41,202 bases of DNA from a virus: positions 1 to 41,202 of IMG/VR virus record IMGVR_UViG_3300027969_000185. One strand, given 5' to 3'. A program made the position numbers and the translations under genes. Shown in pieces: positions 4,560 through 40,688 of the stretch. The notes under the pieces are model-generated. The model was not told the DNA's origin. It did no database searches and worked only from the letters and a program-made list of their open reading frames with translations. The first letter of the stretch is position 1. The number at the start of each line of letters is the position of its first letter.

Positions 4560-5912
4560 ATGTCCCAAGTAATTATTGAGAAGTTGGATGCAATCGAAGC
4601 TAAACAAGCCGAAAGCATTACCGCCGTTGAAGCAAAAATCCCTGCCGCAATTGAAGCTGTAAAAGCTGAGATGCAAGAGATGGTCGCCGCTTTGGAAGCC
4701 AAAGTAGCTACTGTTTCCGCACCCGCAATTCACAAAGAAGTTGCCAAGTCAATTCGCACAGACGTTAACCGTAGCGTTCGTGAGCAATTGAAACAAATGT
4801 ATTCCGGTAAATCTACATTTGAAAAAGAACTGCAAATCTTTGCAGATGAGTCACAGATGGCGGCATATATGTCCGAGTCTTCGCAACTGACTGCCGGCGG
4901 TAATAACAAGGGTGGCCGTACTGGTTACGACCCCGTGTTTACTGCTTTGCGTTTGGCAAATCCTTTGCGCGGCATTACTCGTACCGTTGCAACCGATGGT
5001 TCAAGCTATCAGTTCCGCGTAAAAACGGGCAATGCAGGCGTTCAATGGGGCTACGGCATCCAAAACAACGGCGATTCAACAACCATTGATACGGCAATTT
5101 GGCAATTGGTTCTGAAAGACATTAACGTTCAGTTCCCAATTCGTACAGCCGCTTTGGATGATATTGACGGTTTAGAAGCCAATGTGGTGGATGACATGCT
5201 CATGGAATTCGCACAGGCAGAAGCACTTTCGATGATTCAAAATAATGACCAATCCGGTAGCGGTACATCTGTATCAACAGGCGGCGCAGATGGTTTGCGT
5301 GGACTTGACCAATACCCAATTTTGGGTGGTGGTGCTTATTCCGCCGGTAATACTACAGCCGCCGCTTATGGTACAAGCGGAACAGCATCTACAACTGGTT
5401 TGCATTATTTGGCAACTTATGACCAAATTACAACCAATGCAAATACGGTTGGTGCAAATAACATTTCTTACGATGACGTAATTAATCTTGTTTATGCTTT
5501 GCCGCAACAATATTGGACTCCGGACGCTAAGTTTATGATTAATCCAATTTTGTTAAATGGTTTGCGTAACCTTAAAGATGACAATGGTGCACCCATTTGG
5601 AATCGTAACGAAGGTTTGGTTGCTGACGGTATTGTTGGTCAGTTGTTGGGCTTTGATGTAGTGGTTAACAAATACGTTGATACTCCTTCACAAACTACAG
5701 CGGGTTCAGCCGGTACAACTAGCTTGTACCCAATGTATTTCTGCGATTGGACACGCTTCCATACAACAATTGACAGACTCAATATGTTGATGCGTAGGTA
5801 CGACCAAACGTTGCCCGGATACATTACATTCTTCGGCGAAAAACGTTTGGCAACAAGCGTTCGTGACCCCTTCTCAGGTGTGCGTTACCGTTCAACCGCT
5901 ACCGCAACCTAA
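4560..5912 (+). CDS. Major capsid protein with N-terminal delta domain
   Basis: Shell-forming HK97-fold protein, 450 aa. Residues 1 to about 95 are Ala/Glu/Lys-rich coiled coil (IEAKQAESITAVEAKIP), matching the scaffold-like delta domain cleaved by the prohead protease. The mature fold probably begins near residue 110 (SQLTAGGNNKGG), followed by YDPVFTALRLANPLRG. C-terminal features include PGYITFFGEKRL and RDPFSGVRYR. The gene is followed within 40 bases by a strong terminator and then by a shorter paralogue at 6000-7025. Confidence 0.95.
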   Translation: MSQVIIEKLDAIEAKQAESITAVEAKIPAAIEAVKAEMQEMVAALEAKVATVSAPAIHKEVAKSIRTDVNRSVREQLKQMYSGKSTFEKELQIFADESQMAAYMSESSQLTAGGNNKGGRTGYDPVFTALRLANPLRGITRTVATDGSSYQFRVKTGNAGVQWGYGIQNNGDSTTIDTAIWQLVLKDINVQFPIRTAALDDIDGLEANVVDDMLMEFAQAEALSMIQNNDQSGSGTSVSTGGADGLRGLDQYPILGGGAYSAGNTTAAAYGTSGTASTTGLHYLATYDQITTNANTVGANNISYDDVINLVYALPQQYWTPDAKFMINPILLNGLRNLKDDNGAPIWNRNEGLVADGIVGQLLGFDVVVNKYVDTPSQTTAGSAGTTSLYPMYFCDWTRFHTTIDRLNMLMRRYDQTLPGYITFFGEKRLATSVRDPFSGVRYRSTATAT

Positions 5913-5999: not shown

Positions 6000-7025
6000 A
6001 TGTCAACCAATGAAAAAATCCTGAGTGCTTTGCGCGAGGCGTATACCGAAGGTAAAGCGGTTACGATTAATTTGAATGAGGCTTCCGCACTTACTGGTTC
6101 AGGTTTGAACATTGGCGGGCGCACAATTTTTGATGACGCATTTGCGGCATTACGTTTAGCAAACCCATTCCGGTCTGCGGCCCGCGAAATTACAGTAGCC
6201 GGTTCGCAAGCATCGTTTACTGCAAAAGTTGGTAATGCTACAAATCCGGATAATCCTTGGGGTTACGAATTTACCCCTAATTTGGGTACGCCAAACGTTG
6301 ATACCGTATTTTGGCAACTTCCCGTTCGCGTTTTAGTTGCTCAATTGCCGGTTCGGACCGCAGTTTTAAGTGACGTTAATAATTTGCAAGAAACACTTGC
6401 GGAAGACCTTGCTTTGGAGTTTTCGCAACTAGAAGCCGAGTCAATGGTTTTAAATGATGACCAAGCCGGTACAAGTACAACAACAACGGGCGGTTCAGAA
6501 GGTTTGCGCGGATTAGATATGTATTTAGGTGGTTCTGAAGCCGCTTACGGTACAAGTGGAACTGCAATCACTTGCGGTATCCATACAATCAAACGCGTAT
6601 ATTTTACGGGCACAGGCGGTTCAACGCCTACATACGACAATATGGTTGACGCAATGAATTCATTGCCTTCTGCATATTTTGCATTGCCCGGAACTTCTTG
6701 GCACATGACTCCGGATGTGATTTTAACTTTGCGTCAATTAAAAGATTCGCAAGGTATGCCAATGTTTATTGAGGCCGGTGACAAAGACGGTGCGGCAGTT
6801 GGTAACATTTTTGGATTCCCCGTAATCTCGAATCCTTACCTGAGTAGCGCAAATCCAATTTATTTGGCAAACTGGCCTCAGTTCTTGACAATTGGCGACA
6901 CAGAAACAATGACTATTCGGGCTTACGAACAAACGCAACCCGGATTTATTACAATGTTTGCTGAAAAGCGTATGGTCAGTACAATTCGCAATCCGTTTGC
7001 GGGCGTAAGAATGTCGGTTGATTAA
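6000..7025 (+). CDS. Second HK97-fold capsid protein paralogue
   Basis: 341-aa homologue of the capsid protein encoded just upstream. Aligned blocks are obvious: NIGGRTIFDDAFAALRLANP against NKGGRTGYDPVFTALRLANP, the VRTAVLSDVNNLQ / IRTAALDDIDGLE segment, NDDQAG / NDQSG with LRGLD, and PGFITMFAEKR / PGYITFFGEKR followed by NPFAGVR / DPFSGVR. It lacks the roughly 95-residue coiled-coil delta domain, so it would not need protease processing. It sits after a terminator, suggesting lower expression. Possible roles, all inferred: pentamer or vertex protein, minor capsid component, or alternative shell protein. Confidence 0.88.
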   Translation: MSTNEKILSALREAYTEGKAVTINLNEASALTGSGLNIGGRTIFDDAFAALRLANPFRSAAREITVAGSQASFTAKVGNATNPDNPWGYEFTPNLGTPNVDTVFWQLPVRVLVAQLPVRTAVLSDVNNLQETLAEDLALEFSQLEAESMVLNDDQAGTSTTTTGGSEGLRGLDMYLGGSEAAYGTSGTAITCGIHTIKRVYFTGTGGSTPTYDNMVDAMNSLPSAYFALPGTSWHMTPDVILTLRQLKDSQGMPMFIEAGDKDGAAVGNIFGFPVISNPYLSSANPIYLANWPQFLTIGDTETMTIRAYEQTQPGFITMFAEKRMVSTIRNPFAGVRMSVD

Positions 7026-31965: not shown

Positions 31966-32175
31966 TTAATTCCATTTAATCCAAACGCGAGTGTTTAAGG
32001 CTGAACCACATTGCATTTCTTCGTCTGCCATACAAATAAATTCTATGGCTTGCGATTCAGTATCAAACTTACGCTGATACATGAATTCTTTTCCATCATG
32101 GTCGGTAGCCATGACTTCGTAAAAAATCTTGCCGTGGTGCTGAGTTGGCAAAAAGTGATTGACTGTAAATTTCAT
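31966..32175 (-). CDS. Hypothetical protein
   Basis: 69 aa beginning MKFTVNHFLPTQHHGKIFYE. The start at 32175 is supported by AAGGGGA upstream and by the ATGA overlap with the cyclotransferase gene. Beta-rich N-terminus, helical C-terminus with SQAIEFICMADEEMQCG. Not recognised. Confidence 0.7.
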   Translation of the reverse strand: MKFTVNHFLPTQHHGKIFYEVMATDHDGKEFMYQRKFDTESQAIEFICMADEEMQCGSALNTRVWIKWN

Positions 32176-32627
32176 ACATAGTCCCCTTCGTAATAAAGTT
32201 CTGAAGCGCGTTCTAAATGCTTGACCAACCGCCAAGCCGGTATCATGCAATCTTTATAACCTTGCTCAATTGATTGGTAATATGTAACTAACGGCGGCTC
32301 GTAAAATTCTGTCTCCTTCATAAAATAAATTGTTGCATCGCAATAATTGTCGCTATACGGCGCATAAACCTTTACGGTTTTACGCCCATACAAACTAGGA
32401 AAGCCTTCGTAACGGTCAAGTGCTTGCAAACATTTGCGAGTAATTTTCCAAATGCCAACATACACTTCTGAGTTTTTTTCATGCTCAATATCTGCAACTC
32501 TCCGAAACACAAGCCGGTGATTTTGCAATACTCCTACGCCAATAAACTTTGCATCAGGGCAACGGATTGCCATTTGCTCATGGTTTAGATTGCTACCGTA
32601 GGCGGCGTAATAGGGGTTAAATTTCAT
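32172..32627 (-). CDS. Gamma-glutamylcyclotransferase (AIG2-like)
   Basis: 151 aa. The YAAYGSNLN motif (8-15) forms the substrate pocket and E74 in LDRYEGFPSLYGR is the expected catalytic acid of the GGCT/AIG2 fold, which releases 5-oxoproline from gamma-glutamyl amides. It is two genes downstream of an amidoligase, which makes such amide bonds. That pairing is known from comparative genomics of peptide-ligase systems, so the two probably act on the same gamma-glutamyl product. Confidence 0.85.
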   Translation of the reverse strand: MKFNPYYAAYGSNLNHEQMAIRCPDAKFIGVGVLQNHRLVFRRVADIEHEKNSEVYVGIWKITRKCLQALDRYEGFPSLYGRKTVKVYAPYSDNYCDATIYFMKETEFYEPPLVTYYQSIEQGYKDCMIPAWRLVKHLERASELYYEGDYV

Positions 32628-32641
32628 TTGATTACCTTTCT

Positions 32642-32866
32642 TTAAATTGACACTACGATTTCTGATGCGATTAAGTCTTGCAAAAAATTGTCTGCGGTAT
32701 CAAACCGGATACAGGATTGGTTATACAGCCATGCGCGGTCCGAGACTTGCCGCATAAACTCCGGCACATTGTGCGATGGAGTCCGGCTAGATTTACGCAT
32801 ACGACAAACGAATTGGTCTGCGGTGTCGGCGATGACAAAGCCACCGCCTTGCATTAGATAGATCAT
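32642..32866 (-). CDS. Small protein between amidoligase and cyclotransferase
   Basis: 74 aa, not recognised. It begins MIYLMQGGGFVIADTADQFV; basic middle (CRMRKSSRTPSH), hydrophobic end. GGAG lies six bases before the ATG, which overlaps the amidoligase stop (ATGA). Tight coupling suggests it is an accessory or even a substrate of the amidoligase; this is speculative. Confidence 0.65.
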   Translation of the reverse strand: MIYLMQGGGFVIADTADQFVCRMRKSSRTPSHNVPEFMRQVSDRAWLYNQSCIRFDTADNFLQDLIASEIVVSI

Positions 32867-33654
32867 GCTGTCTCCAACTTAGTTGCACGGGCCTTATAAA
32901 AGGCTTCGATCTTTGGAGTGATTGCATTGCGAGTTACCATGCGTGACAACAACTGGTGCAGTTTTTCTGAAACTGACTGACCTTCTTTTGGCAATGCGAT
33001 TGTGATGCCGGATTCTGCAGTTGCTACAAAACCGCCGGTAAGTCTGATATAGGCTTCGACCTTGACTGCATCAAAAGTGCCCGCGTGGTTGCGGAACTCT
33101 ACAGTACCTTGCCTGATAAACGACTGAATGTTTAACTTGACATACCGACTGTCAAACAAATTTGCCATGTGGCGAATGCTATGGCAGTTGTTGATTTTGG
33201 CAAATGTTGCGGCTACGCCATTACGGTTGATGATTGATTGGCAATACCGATTGTTGTTTTCGCGGCGGCTTACTGGCTGAATGCTGTCCAAAGCTGATTC
33301 ATATTTTGCAAACAACTTGAACAGCTTTTTGAATTCTGTAAGATTCCAACCTTGCGCATTATGGTGAATGTGAAAACCACAGGACTTGTTTACTTTAGCA
33401 CCGATGCGTTCCAAAACTTTACAAACTGTTTTGGCTTGGGTGATGCCGTCTTCGCCTACCAAAATTGGGCTGACAACTTCAAAACCGTTTGCACCCTGAA
33501 TAGAACCATCTGTCTTGACTTGCCAAACGCTATATGCACGACCTGAATAGCTTGCTGAGTGTGCGTCAATGCCGGCGTTTCTTAAAGCGGCTACAACGTC
33601 AATAATAGCTACGTTGAAACATTCCAGTTCGATTCCAAATTTGCGATTGTTCAT
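32863..33654 (-). CDS. Amidoligase (COOH-NH2 ligase family)
   Basis: 263 aa, glutamine-synthetase-like fold. Motifs: FGIELEC at 6-12, GFEVVSPIL around 58-65 with E59, CGFHIHH at 92-98, NNRYCQ, and GTVEFRNHAGT. These are the usual metal/ATP and substrate residues of the amidoligase_2 family, which forms amide or peptide bonds on small molecules or protein side chains. First gene of the leftward operon, 55 bases from a perfect consensus promoter. The substrate is unknown. Confidence 0.9.
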   Translation of the reverse strand: MNNRKFGIELECFNVAIIDVVAALRNAGIDAHSASYSGRAYSVWQVKTDGSIQGANGFEVVSPILVGEDGITQAKTVCKVLERIGAKVNKSCGFHIHHNAQGWNLTEFKKLFKLFAKYESALDSIQPVSRRENNNRYCQSIINRNGVAATFAKINNCHSIRHMANLFDSRYVKLNIQSFIRQGTVEFRNHAGTFDAVKVEAYIRLTGGFVATAESGITIALPKEGQSVSEKLHQLLSRMVTRNAITPKIEAFYKARATKLETA

Positions 33655-33757: not shown

Positions 33758-33846
33758 CTGCAAACCCGAGTTTTCAATTTAAAAAGTCACAGAAACAAAA
33801 GTTCTCATTTGCAGAGGTCATGCAAAAATTGCATAAAGTTTTTTTA
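33758..33846 (+). repeat. Control-region direct repeat, copy A
   Basis: About 89 bp beginning CTGCAAACCCGAGTTTTCAA, sharing long blocks with copy B at 33916-34000 (GAGTTTTCAATTT, GAAACAAAAGTTCTCATT, and the palindrome). Each copy also has CTGCAA and TTGCAG as outward partners. The region is non-coding and AT-rich, with T-rich runs after this copy. Confidence 0.85.
33820..33834. promoter_or_regulatory. Palindromic operator candidate, copy A
   Basis: ATGCAA-AAA-TTGCAT: perfect 6-bp arms around a 3-bp spacer, a typical site for a dimeric HTH repressor. The same arms are conserved in the second repeat. The Cro-like protein of this genome is a candidate ligand. Confidence 0.65.
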
Positions 33847-33915: not shown

Positions 33916-34000
33916 CTGCAAACCTGAGTTTTCAATTTTCTCAAGAAACAAAAGTTCTCATTGCAGAAAAGATTATGCAAAAGTTGCATAACTTTTTTTA
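33916..34000 (+). repeat. Control-region direct repeat, copy B
   Basis: About 85 bp, beginning CTGCAAACCTGAGTTTTCAA, the second copy of the repeat at 33758-33846, shortened by a few bases in the middle. It ends just at the -35 region of the rightward promoter. Confidence 0.85.
33975..33989. promoter_or_regulatory. Palindromic operator candidate, copy B
   Basis: ATGCAA-AAG-TTGCAT. Arms identical to copy A, spacer differs at one base. It lies eight bases upstream of the rightward -35 candidate, a position fitting activation or repression. Confidence 0.65.
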
Positions 34001-34787: not shown

Positions 34788-34952
34788 ATGCTTGACATGA
34801 ACACACATGATGCAATTAAGTTAGCCGGAGGTCAGGTGCAACTAGCAAAGTTGTTAGGCATTTCGCAACCGGCTATTTCCCAATGGGGGGACACCATTCC
34901 GCAAGCCCGCGAGTGGCAGTTAAGGGTACTTAAACCTGAATGGTTTCTGTAA
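34788..34952 (+). CDS. cro: Cro-like repressor (P22 Cro / YdaS type)
   Basis: 54 aa. Helix-turn-helix QVQLAKLLGISQPAISQWG at 16-34, followed by IPQAREWQLRVLKPEWF, closely resembling P22 Cro in length and layout. It binds operators as a dimer to shut early promoters. GAGG precedes the ATG; an alternative ATG is at codon 4. No divergent CI-type gene is present. Its likely targets are the ATGCAA palindromes or the ACCTTAT sites about 0.8-1 kb upstream. Confidence 0.82.
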   Translation: MLDMNTHDAIKLAGGQVQLAKLLGISQPAISQWGDTIPQAREWQLRVLKPEWFL

Positions 34953-37976: not shown

Positions 37977-38338
37977 TCGAAAAGGTTGCACTTGAGCAAA
38001 TTGCTCATTTCTTACCTGAAGCCAAAAAAGCTGGGTTAACTTTCTGTAATAGCACAGAATATTATGCTTTTTATCATGACGCAAATATAGTAGCTATTAC
38101 TGGATTGGTTTGGTATAAAAATAAAGCAGTATTTAAAAACAGTTTTGTTTTGCCAAAGCATAGAGGTTACGGCATATACAGAACAATGTTTGACTTTAGG
38201 TTGCAACTTGCTAAAAGCCGCAACATAAGGACAATTGAAGCAACTTGTACCAAAATGTCCCTGAAGTTGTGGTTAGACAAGGGTGCTGTACTAATTAAAC
38301 AATACAAACTGTACTCAAAGGTGCAGTTACCAATATGA
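37973..38338 (+). CDS. GNAT acyltransferase in modification cassette
   Basis: 121-aa GNAT fold: a long beta region (YYAFYHDANIVAITGLVWYK), motif A FVLPKHRGYGIYRTMFDFRL with the R-x-x-G-x-G-type CoA loop (HRGYGI), and a C-terminal WLDKGAVLIKQYKLYSKV. GNAT-like enzymes include Mom, which modifies adenine in DNA, but this sequence is a more ordinary GNAT. The substrate is unknown. It overlaps genes on both sides by four bases. Confidence 0.78.
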   Translation: MIEKVALEQIAHFLPEAKKAGLTFCNSTEYYAFYHDANIVAITGLVWYKNKAVFKNSFVLPKHRGYGIYRTMFDFRLQLAKSRNIRTIEATCTKMSLKLWLDKGAVLIKQYKLYSKVQLPI

Positions 38339-39477
38339 AGATATACGGTAAAGACAACGTTTACGATGCCGCACTTAAACGCATAAATTGGTTATTCGAT
38401 GAATTTCCAAATGTAATTGTGGGCGTAAGCGGAGGCAAAGACAGCACAATTGTTTACCAATTAGCCTTGCAAGTAGCCCGAGAACGTGGGCGTTTGCCGC
38501 TTAAATGCTTATTTATTGACCAAGAAGCCGAGTGGCAAGCAACCATTGATACCATGCGGTTGATAATGGAAAACCCTGAAGTTGAGCCGCTTTGGTTTCA
38601 AATGCCTATACGGTTATTTAATGCAACAAGTACAACGGACCATTGGCTAATGTGTTGGGACAAAGCTGAAGAACACCGTTGGATGCGCCCGCAAGAACCC
38701 TATGCCATTACAGAAAACACATACGGTACAGAACGATTTGGTGAATTGTTTAGCGCAATTATTAAAAAAGATTTTGCCGGCATAAAAACTTGCTACGTTG
38801 CGGGGATGCGAACAGAAGAAAGCCCAACCCGTGCAATGGCATTAACGCATGAGTTGACCTACAAGCACGTTACATGGGGTAGCACGTTAGACAAAAAAGC
38901 ACAACATTACACGTTCTATCCAATTTACGATTGGTCGTACATGGATGTATGGGCGGCTATACACAAAAATAATTGGTATTACAACAAGATTTACGATGCC
39001 CAATATAACTACGGTATTGGTCTGCCTAATATGCGAGTTTCCAACGTGCATCATGAGACTGCGGTAAGCACGTTGTTTTATATGCAAGAGATTGAGGGCG
39101 ATACATACCAAAGATTGACGCAACGCATTGCCGGCATTGACATGGCGGGCAAGATGGGCAAGCACGATTATTTTCCAAAATCATTGCCATTTATGTTTGC
39201 AGATTGGCGAGAATATCGAGACTTTTTACTTGAAAAGCTAATCGACAATCCGGATTGGATTAAAGGCTTTAAAAAGATATTTGCTCGACATGACGAAATG
39301 TATGGGCATGTTATTGCAGACAAAATGTACAAAGAGCATATAAATGCGATTCTGACAAACGATTGGGAACACGTAAAACTAGGCAACTTTGAACGCAGAC
39401 CTGAAAATATTACGCTTAAAAAAGAGTGGCGAAAGAGAAAAAATGACAATAAAACAATTGATACAGCAACAAATTGA
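38335..39477 (+). CDS. PAPS-reductase-like PP-loop protein (IbrA-like)
   Basis: 380 aa. The PP-loop SGGKDS at 32-37 binds ATP/adenylyl groups as in PAPS reductases, DndC and IbrA. Further features are LFIDQEAEWQATIDTM (near 70), WMRPQEPYAI, AGMRTEESPTRAMAL and YPIYDWSYMDVWAAIHKNNW. The following gene is ParB-like, as in the ibrA-ibrB pair of Escherichia coli and many phages. A reductase role in sulfur assimilation is less likely in this setting than modification of a nucleic acid or cofactor. Confidence 0.85.
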   Translation: MKIYGKDNVYDAALKRINWLFDEFPNVIVGVSGGKDSTIVYQLALQVARERGRLPLKCLFIDQEAEWQATIDTMRLIMENPEVEPLWFQMPIRLFNATSTTDHWLMCWDKAEEHRWMRPQEPYAITENTYGTERFGELFSAIIKKDFAGIKTCYVAGMRTEESPTRAMALTHELTYKHVTWGSTLDKKAQHYTFYPIYDWSYMDVWAAIHKNNWYYNKIYDAQYNYGIGLPNMRVSNVHHETAVSTLFYMQEIEGDTYQRLTQRIAGIDMAGKMGKHDYFPKSLPFMFADWREYRDFLLEKLIDNPDWIKGFKKIFARHDEMYGHVIADKMYKEHINAILTNDWEHVKLGNFERRPENITLKKEWRKRKNDNKTIDTATN

Positions 39478-40120
39478 ATCATTGACCCAAACGCGGGAAA
39501 AGATTCTATTTATTGAAGATTTAAAGGCTTACTTACATGAGTTAAGCCCACAAAAGTCGCAACCCGTTGATTTGGTGCGTTGGATACCAATTGAAAAGGT
39601 TCATGCCAATGACTACAATCCGAATAGCGTTGCCAAAAATGAGATGCGCTTACTGTATGTAAGCATTAGCCATGATGGGTACACGCAACCGGTTGTTACT
39701 GTATATGACGATGCAAAAGATGAATACGTCATTGTTGACGGGTTTCACAGATATACAACCATGCGGTTAAACCAAGATATTGCAGACCGAAACAACGGAC
39801 TATTACCCGTGGTTGTAATTGACAAATCAATCAATGACCGAATGGCCTCTACGGTGCGACATAATCGTGCAAGGGGCAAGCATAGTGTTTCAGGCATGGC
39901 AAACATGGTGTTTCAGATGCTTGAGAATGGTTGGACCGATGAAGCCATCTGCGCTGAGTTAGGCGTTGAAGCAGACGAATTAGTAAGGTTAAAACACGTT
40001 ACAGGGTTTAGTAAGCTTTTCGAGAACGTGGAATATAGGCGTTCTTGGGAAACCAAACGTCAAATTCAATTGCGAAATGAATACATGAAAGGACAAGTTG
40101 ATGCAAACAGTAATGCTTAA
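39443..40120 (+). CDS. ParB-like nuclease-domain protein (IbrB-like)
   Basis: 225 aa from the ATG at 39443, overlapping the PP-loop gene by 35 bases. ParB/sulfiredoxin-fold motifs: VRWIPIEKVHANDYNPNSV and VIVDGFHRYTTMRL (the GxHR signature), followed by VRHNRARGKHSVSGMANMVF and an HTH-like segment (WTDEAICAELGVEADELVRL). IbrB-type partner of the upstream gene. It may bind DNA, or use NTP/phosphate chemistry as known ParB folds do. Confidence 0.85.
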   Translation: MTIKQLIQQQIESLTQTREKILFIEDLKAYLHELSPQKSQPVDLVRWIPIEKVHANDYNPNSVAKNEMRLLYVSISHDGYTQPVVTVYDDAKDEYVIVDGFHRYTTMRLNQDIADRNNGLLPVVVIDKSINDRMASTVRHNRARGKHSVSGMANMVFQMLENGWTDEAICAELGVEADELVRLKHVTGFSKLFENVEYRRSWETKRQIQLRNEYMKGQVDANSNA

Positions 40121-40688
40121 AATTACAGAGATTAAACCTTACTGGCGCAACCCAAGGCGCAATGATGATGCCATTGGTGCAGTCATGCAGTCAATTAAAC
40201 AGTTTGGTTTTAATCAACCAATTATTCTTGATGCTGACAACGTAATTATTGCGGGGCACACACGTTACAAAGCCTTGCAACAGTTAGGCGTTGAGACAGT
40301 CCCTTGCATAATCAAAGCCGATTTATCAGCCCAAGATGCCAAAGCATATAGGATTGCAGACAATAAGACTTCAGAACTGGCATCATGGGATATAACCAAA
40401 CTAATCCCTGAGTTAAGGGAGATTGAAGCCATTGACGATATGGAGATATATTTTCCAACGTTAAGCCTAGATGAGTTGCTCAAAGAATCAGCCGGTGGTT
40501 CGGACACATTCCATAGTGCAACACAACAACAAGTAGTCAAGGCACAAGCCAAGCTAGAGGCACAGTTTGAGGATAACAGTAAGGCTAGACAATCTGCTTA
40601 TGTGGAGGTGGTGTGTCCACATTGTGCTGAGTCATTCCATGTAGACCGTGCCGAGATAGCGCGAGAACGCGATGCCGACCCTGCCTAA
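40101..40688 (+). CDS. Second ParB-like protein with zinc ribbon
   Basis: 195 aa from the ATG at 40101 (AAAGGA upstream; a TTG at 40098 is less likely). Motifs LKITEIKPYWRNPRRND and VIIAGHTRYKALQQLG (GHTR version of the signature) and AYRIADNKTSELASWD, typical of phage ParB-fold proteins often next to methyltransferases and terminases. The C-terminal CPHCAESFHVDRAEI resembles a short zinc-binding knuckle. It overlaps the first ParB-like gene by 20 bases. Confidence 0.85.
   Translation: MQTVMLKITEIKPYWRNPRRNDDAIGAVMQSIKQFGFNQPIILDADNVIIAGHTRYKALQQLGVETVPCIIKADLSAQDAKAYRIADNKTSELASWDITKLIPELREIEAIDDMEIYFPTLSLDELLKESAGGSDTFHSATQQQVVKAQAKLEAQFEDNSKARQSAYVEVVCPHCAESFHVDRAEIARERDADPA

Follow-up and report, generated by a model that had tools for sequence, protein, structure and literature searches.

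An amidoligase next to a γ-glutamyl cyclotransferase (GGCT) is a gene pair already known from phages, in cassettes of the phiEco32, LUZ24 and RIO-1 type. The window analysed here, the whole stretch of 41,202 nucleotides of the virus record IMGVR_UViG_3300027969_000185, displays the same two enzymes with a gene for a 74-residue protein between them, and the question raised by this locus is what the small protein does: whether it is modified by the amidoligase, works together with it, or merely lies beside it.

Organization of the locus and its upstream region

The window is a tailed-phage contig comprising terminase, portal, protease, capsid and tape-measure genes. The module of three ORFs proposed in a preliminary description of this DNA is present in full on the minus strand, between 33654 and 32172, and the region comprises the following features:

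33777-33749, minus strand: second promoter-like site, TTGAAA-17-TATAAT, 11/12 consensus match
33737-33709, minus strand: σ70-like promoter, TTGACA-17-TATAAT, 12/12 consensus match
33654-32863, minus strand: Amidoligase_2 gene, 263 aa (PF12224, phrog_2443)
32866-32642, minus strand: 74-aa amidoligase-associated protein of an unnamed family, predicted ββαααβ fold (ATGA overlap, homologues, AlphaFold model)
32627-32172, minus strand: γ-glutamyl cyclotransferase, AIG2/GGACT type, 151 aa (PF06094, phrog_2520)
31966-32178, minus strand: 70-aa ORF of the same operon, overlapping the end of the cyclotransferase gene, outside the claimed module; kept in the related locus L001
30979-31944, minus strand: DUF932 protein (PF06067), next in the operon, outside the claimed module; same order in L001 and in a second related locus, L002

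The amidoligase opens a leftward gene run and is followed in it by the 74-aa ORF, the cyclotransferase, the 70-aa ORF, the DUF932 gene, small ORFs and an ERF annealing protein gene. The module had been placed at the head of an early operon; the head position stands, and the operon is presumably, rather than observably, an early one. Translational linkage, claimed for the three genes, holds for the first two, the ATG of the 74-aa ORF overlapping the amidoligase stop codon by 4 nt (ATGA) with a GGAG motif 7 nt upstream, whereas the cyclotransferase follows after a gap of 14 nt, close and not overlapping. The strong promoter reported ahead of the module was recovered as the 12/12 site, and this site and the 11/12 one lie 55-125 nt ahead of the amidoligase start. 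The weaker matches of this region are no commoner than in shuffled sequences (19 found versus 24.6 expected), so that only these two sites stand out. Two direct repeats in the divergent promoter region, at 33758-33809 (CTGCAAACCxGAGTTTTCAATTT) and 33916-33962 (AGAAACAAAAGTTCTCATT), look like operator sites, one of them overlapping the 11/12 promoter-like site, and a Cro-like 54-aa ORF is located at 34788-34952.

All three module genes are under purifying selection according to their dN/dS ratios. The 74-aa ORF displays a dN/dS of 0.26 against L001 and of 0.08-0.37 in other pairs (0.08-0.28 among L017, L019 and L021), and these ratios, together with its wide conservation, identify it on sequence grounds as a real gene. 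Divergence from L001 is uneven along the operon, with dS values of 0.885 for the amidoligase, 0.26 for the small ORF, 0.18 for the GGCT, 0.06 for the 70-aa ORF and 0.63 for DUF932, which suggests recombination between two close phages. A DNA-level search of phage records for relatives of the window found none. Elsewhere in the window, the plus strand encodes (i) a PAPS-reductase/DUF3440 protein followed by two ParB_N proteins (38335-40688), an ATP-PPase plus ParB arrangement whose relatives also occur near other amidoligase loci, and (ii) two adjacent proteins (4560-5912 and 6000-7025), each matching Phage_capsid PF05065 (E 5.6e-26 and 2.2e-21).

The amidoligase and the cyclotransferase

The amidoligase matches PF12224 with E=1.1e-38 and 133.9 bits (cut-off 22), as the single copy of this family in the window, and phrog_2443 with E=4.7e-47. 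Its AlphaFold model (pLDDT 95.4) matches the GS/GCS fold over the whole length with Z of 12-14.5, the matches comprising (i) YbdK-type ligases (14.5), (ii) glutamine synthetases (about 13), and (iii) Dop (about 13). The comparison with GshA/YbdK and glutamine synthetase discloses the same fold across the entire model (Z 13-14.5), but only 10-14% identity and a shorter core in the window amidoligase. Alignment with 172 relatives highlights E9, E11, D49, E59, H95, H97, R130, N175, E186, R188 and H190 as conserved, with at most one exception each, among the members that have a residue at that position; eight of them, E9, E11, D49, E59, H95, H97, E186 and R188, invariant among these relatives wherever present, would represent the metal/ATP-type ligands expected of the GS/GCS fold (ExE, D, E, HxH, ExR), with roles taken from the fold. 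The alignment and the predicted structure show a putative carboxylate-amine ligase of the GS/GCS fold in which all invariant family residues are present. A PDB sequence search with the amidoligase profile returned nothing useful. Five amidoligases encoded without the small partner (loci L059, L066, L089, L090 and L132) display about 70 additional residues at the C-terminus, of winged-helix-like character.

The cyclotransferase matches PF06094 with E=1.5e-10 and 42.1 bits (cut-off 22.8) and phrog_2520 with E=3.6e-29. It shares with the GGACT/AIG2 family this match above the cut-off and the catalytic glutamate, E74 aligning with Glu82 of GGACT (2kl2 row) and the equivalent residue being invariant in 53 of 53 relatives, but it represents a phage-specific branch whose activity is predicted. 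Since the catalytic residues appear intact in both proteins, neither looks dead, in line with their earlier description as an amidoligase and a cyclotransferase. Loss of the metal/ATP ligands or a lack of linkage in related genomes had been named as grounds against the module. The ligand residues are kept, and among the records listed, 35 of 39 distinct phage records with a relative of the window cyclotransferase contain an amidoligase gene no more than about 1 kb away in the same orientation; the two enzymes are linked in many unrelated phages. Seen from the amidoligase, a GGCT lies nearby on the same strand in 44 of the 138 non-redundant loci with enough downstream sequence.

A small protein family associated with amidoligases

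Single-protein scans for close relatives gave few loci, and alignment-based scans were therefore used. A profile built from six seeds (the window, one viral contig, a Porphyromonas phage and three faecal scaffolds) recruited 65 members from the amidoligase loci in its initial, non-iterated round, and 121 matches with no weak tail over 173 loci comprising 13,721 ORFs. Conservation of the intervening ORF across phage amidoligase loci, the check advised in the preliminary description, extends to phages and other DNA alike: 98 of 138 non-redundant loci, spread across both halves of the tree, have a homologue immediately after the amidoligase and in the same orientation, a proportion that applies to this branch rather than to all Amidoligase_2 proteins, the 138 loci having been found through amidoligase similarity. 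The two genes overlap or are separated by at most 20 nt in 77 of 99 cases, 19 of which display the 4-nt overlap of the window. Members occur in phage contigs, in Bacteroides conjugative elements beside tra-type genes, and in bacterial genomes, with titles that include Bacteroidota, Verrucomicrobiota, Thermodesulfobacteriota, Spirochaetota, Cyanobacteriota and Sumerlaeota. The order amidoligase, small protein, GGCT recurs in 31 non-redundant loci, and the cyclotransferase is absent from the other 67 of the 98; it is thus the amidoligase, and not the enzyme pair, that the small protein accompanies. As it follows the amidoligase in most relatives on mobile DNA, it is likely to be a functional component specific to that enzyme.

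The family has no convincing counterpart in the profile collections searched. Over 42 members and at the thresholds used, no PHROG or NCBIfam model matched more than one member and no Pfam model more than two, the matches being weak and inconsistent; a PDB sequence search with the small-protein profile was likewise without useful result. The AlphaFold model of the 74-aa protein, obtained with 46 sequences, shows a confident prediction (pLDDT 94.5, pTM 0.83) with the order β-β-α-α-α-β. The best Foldseek match against the PDB has an E of 1.4 and all VIA-align Z are below 2, a lack of significant matches that does not amount to proof of a new fold, and no fold is therefore assigned. A PqqD/RRE-type candidate was considered: one member of the family gives a weak PqqD_rel_X score (E=0.01), and no Foldseek match was obtained at E<=0.001.

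Two roles had been offered for the 74-aa protein, substrate or specificity factor. As a substrate it would be a carrier or tag, extended or conjugated by the amidoligase as in pupylation or in carrier-protein amino acid pathways. It is small, co-translated and present once per amidoligase, the fold matches of the amidoligase include Dop and further tag enzymes of the GS fold, and Iyer et al. reportedly proposed in 2009 a use in tagging for amidoligases in general. Against this, the predicted structure is compact, its three helices and sheet lacking the disorder of Pup, and the last residue is free to vary among 99 members (16 E, 10 N, 10 D, 7 I, 7 K). In addition, no lysine or glutamate is invariant, the best conserved positions being M38, L65, R44, F61, G8 and D64. 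Because no terminus or lysine is conserved and the protein is predicted to be well folded, the tag role is disfavoured and appears improbable. The other proposal, a specificity factor, may be right, and more generally the alignment and the model agree better with a subunit devoted to the amidoligase, whether as adaptor, specificity factor or control element, than with a tag. Cyanobacterial IF7 and IF17 are small regulators of glutamine synthetase, of 60-80 aa, encoded apart from glnA and mostly disordered; compared by description, the likeness is one of idea alone, a protein of 60-80 aa that binds an enzyme of the GS fold.

The association is not without exceptions. A whole-genome search with the small-protein profile alone recovered 14 new members beside an amidoligase (8 outside the Runella family and 6 within), and also many orphan members in Spirosomataceae genomes, encoded without an amidoligase and in some cases in tandem arrays. 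The orphans found comprise (i) arrays of three paralogues with no amidoligase, near response-regulator genes, in Spirosomataceae-related genomes (L206, 6834-7854; L212, 4402-5423), and (ii) in another Bacteroidota genome, one that gave no PF12224 match at all, a single member encoded immediately ahead of a DACNH-DAC protein (L181, 4851-6829). Exclusivity of the family to amidoligase loci was rejected on account of these orphans, found in Spirosomataceae and in one other Bacteroidota genome. The solo paralogues indicate that the family does not depend strictly on amidoligases and that the domain has other uses: the association is strong, not exclusive, and the fold is re-used.

On the amidoligase side, 39 of the 138 enzymes have neither the small protein nor a detectable equivalent, or display a GATase in its place. 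The small protein and a GATase share none of the 138 non-redundant loci. Strict mutual exclusion was nevertheless rejected, since four Desulfobacterota loci combine an amidoligase with both a GATase and a longer protein that contains a weak match to the small domain (E 4e-5 to 2e-8; 166-174 aa, counted from the first possible start), three of them also with a GGCT. A tree-based test of exclusion was not significant, with too few independent pairs, and with the Desulfobacterota loci this reduces the mutual avoidance of small protein and GATase to a tendency.

These distributions bear on a different account of the locus, a toxin-antidote pair on mobile DNA, in which the amidoligase would be toxic or growth-altering and the small protein, elsewhere the GATase or the cyclotransferase, a co-encoded restraint. 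Phages and conjugative elements do carry the amidoligase with an overlapping small partner, the solo and tandem paralogues resemble orphan immunity genes, and the rarity of small protein and GATase in one locus would suit alternative restraints. However, an antidote usually precedes or equals its toxin in expression and here comes second, PADLOC, which covers known anti-phage defence, gave no match for any of the three module proteins, and the Desulfobacterota loci, with amidoligase, divergent small-domain protein, GATase and cyclotransferase together, show that the partners are not strict alternatives. There is little likelihood that this account is correct. For amidoligases in anti-defence or in conjugative elements, the literature searched gave no specific role.

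Related cassettes and the proposed working of the module

The phiEco32/LUZ24/RIO-1 type of "peptidoglycan modification" cassette is said to have been described by Iyer et al. in 2009 and Hardies et al. in 2013. As in the window, Amidoligase_2 adjoins GGCT in the early or replication half of these phage genomes, but the cassettes also carry a class II GATase, a RimK-like ATP-grasp enzyme and a second COOH-NH2 ligase of the phi32_86 family. The window gives no match to class II GATase (PF13522), the record being possibly a fragment, nor to ATP-grasp_4 (PF13535), the one ATP-grasp profile run; with neither matched, the full proposed cell-wall chemistry need not apply. On the other hand, no homologue of the 74-aa protein was found in the three reference cassettes even at E 10. 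Judged by gene content and profile matches, the module is a predicted reduced variant of the phage amidoligase/GGCT cassette with an extra unnamed partner.

Two further groups illustrate how the parts combine. Firmicutes gut phages (for example TPDSL_ph1 and the NatCom phages) preserve the order amidoligase then GGCT, but the two genes usually stand about 60-250 nt apart, with no homologue of the 74-aa protein in the interval. Bacteroidota elements, including Porphyromonas phages and Bacteroides conjugative elements, share with the window the overlapping pair of amidoligase and small protein, but have no cyclotransferase, and their amidoligase displays an extra N-terminal helix-turn-helix-like stretch.

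The linkage of amidoligase and GGCT, together with a predicted modification of the cell wall, has been reported for related cassettes (PMC5498523, PMC11945000, PMC6256558, PMC11253131). Transferred to the window, the module would alter the peptidoglycan stem peptides of the host and shut out competing phages, as predicted for the phiEco32 and RIO-1 types, with the small protein incidental. The prediction is published for cassettes of the same two enzyme families (PMC5498523, PMC10580990, PMC11253131), and their position among early or replication genes is the same. The two enzymes unmatched in the window, however, supply other steps of the cassette, the literature search found no experiment behind the prediction, and the amidoligase with its small protein and no cyclotransferase is common, even beside Bacteroides conjugation genes, where a role in superinfection is less obvious. 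This explanation is accordingly regarded as rather unlikely.

A further possibility is auxiliary metabolism, with the enzymes feeding host glutamate, glutathione or nitrogen metabolism during infection. The precedent is Phage-ZRK32, which encodes an amidoligase, a GATase, a glutathione synthase and a GGCT and raised the growth of Pseudomonas on nitrate or ammonium, a gain that, its authors suggested, might come from these genes (PMC10945688). The link to the genes was speculative in that study and made without gene removal, and a dedicated small partner and a spread over mobile elements are unexpected for a plain metabolic gene; for the window this reading is hardly probable.

The reading preferred here, with a probability of roughly 45%, is that many Amidoligase_2 enzymes of mobile DNA are two-subunit enzymes, comprising a catalytic chain of the GS fold and an unnamed, co-translated ββαααβ partner of about 78 aa that sets substrate or activity; in the window a cyclotransferase would make this a three-gene form, and in Cytophagales the small fold would be re-used alone. 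For the module itself this means, tentatively and at a little under even odds, a predicted ATP-dependent ligase that forms amides and has a small subunit of its own, with a cyclotransferase encoded after it. Three observations count against the subunit model: the solo members of the small family, the 39 of 138 amidoligases encoded without the small protein, and the absence among Foldseek results of any relative hinting at binding.

Under the two-subunit reading, the amidoligase would activate a carboxylate and join it to an amine, as the chemistry of its family suggests, the γ-carboxyl of glutamate being the likeliest substrate because of the partner cyclotransferase. The 74-aa protein would bind the amidoligase and tune its substrate choice, assembly or activity, a role to which the conserved adjacency, the overlap and the fold point, and would not itself be the substrate modified. 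The AIG2-type enzyme may then take off γ-glutamyl groups as 5-oxoproline, and so edit, reverse or recycle the product. The candidate target in the cell would be a modification of cell-wall peptides that blocks superinfection, ranked first for want of a better one.

The enzyme pair as such is ordinary; the novelty, as far as could be found in the open-licence literature, which yielded no description of it, lies in the conserved 74-aa partner, a protein family for which no database entry was found. Activity tests on the amidoligase alone, past or future, may fail for lack of the subunit, and the conserved co-translated partner provides a concrete handle on a functional guess that has stood since 2009 for the amidoligase/cyclotransferase pair. 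With this family, two types of amidoligase module can also be told apart, one with the small protein and one with a GATase. In Phage C75C1 (L010, 6702-7598), a class II GATase and a GGCT are fused into one protein of 298 aa downstream of the amidoligase.
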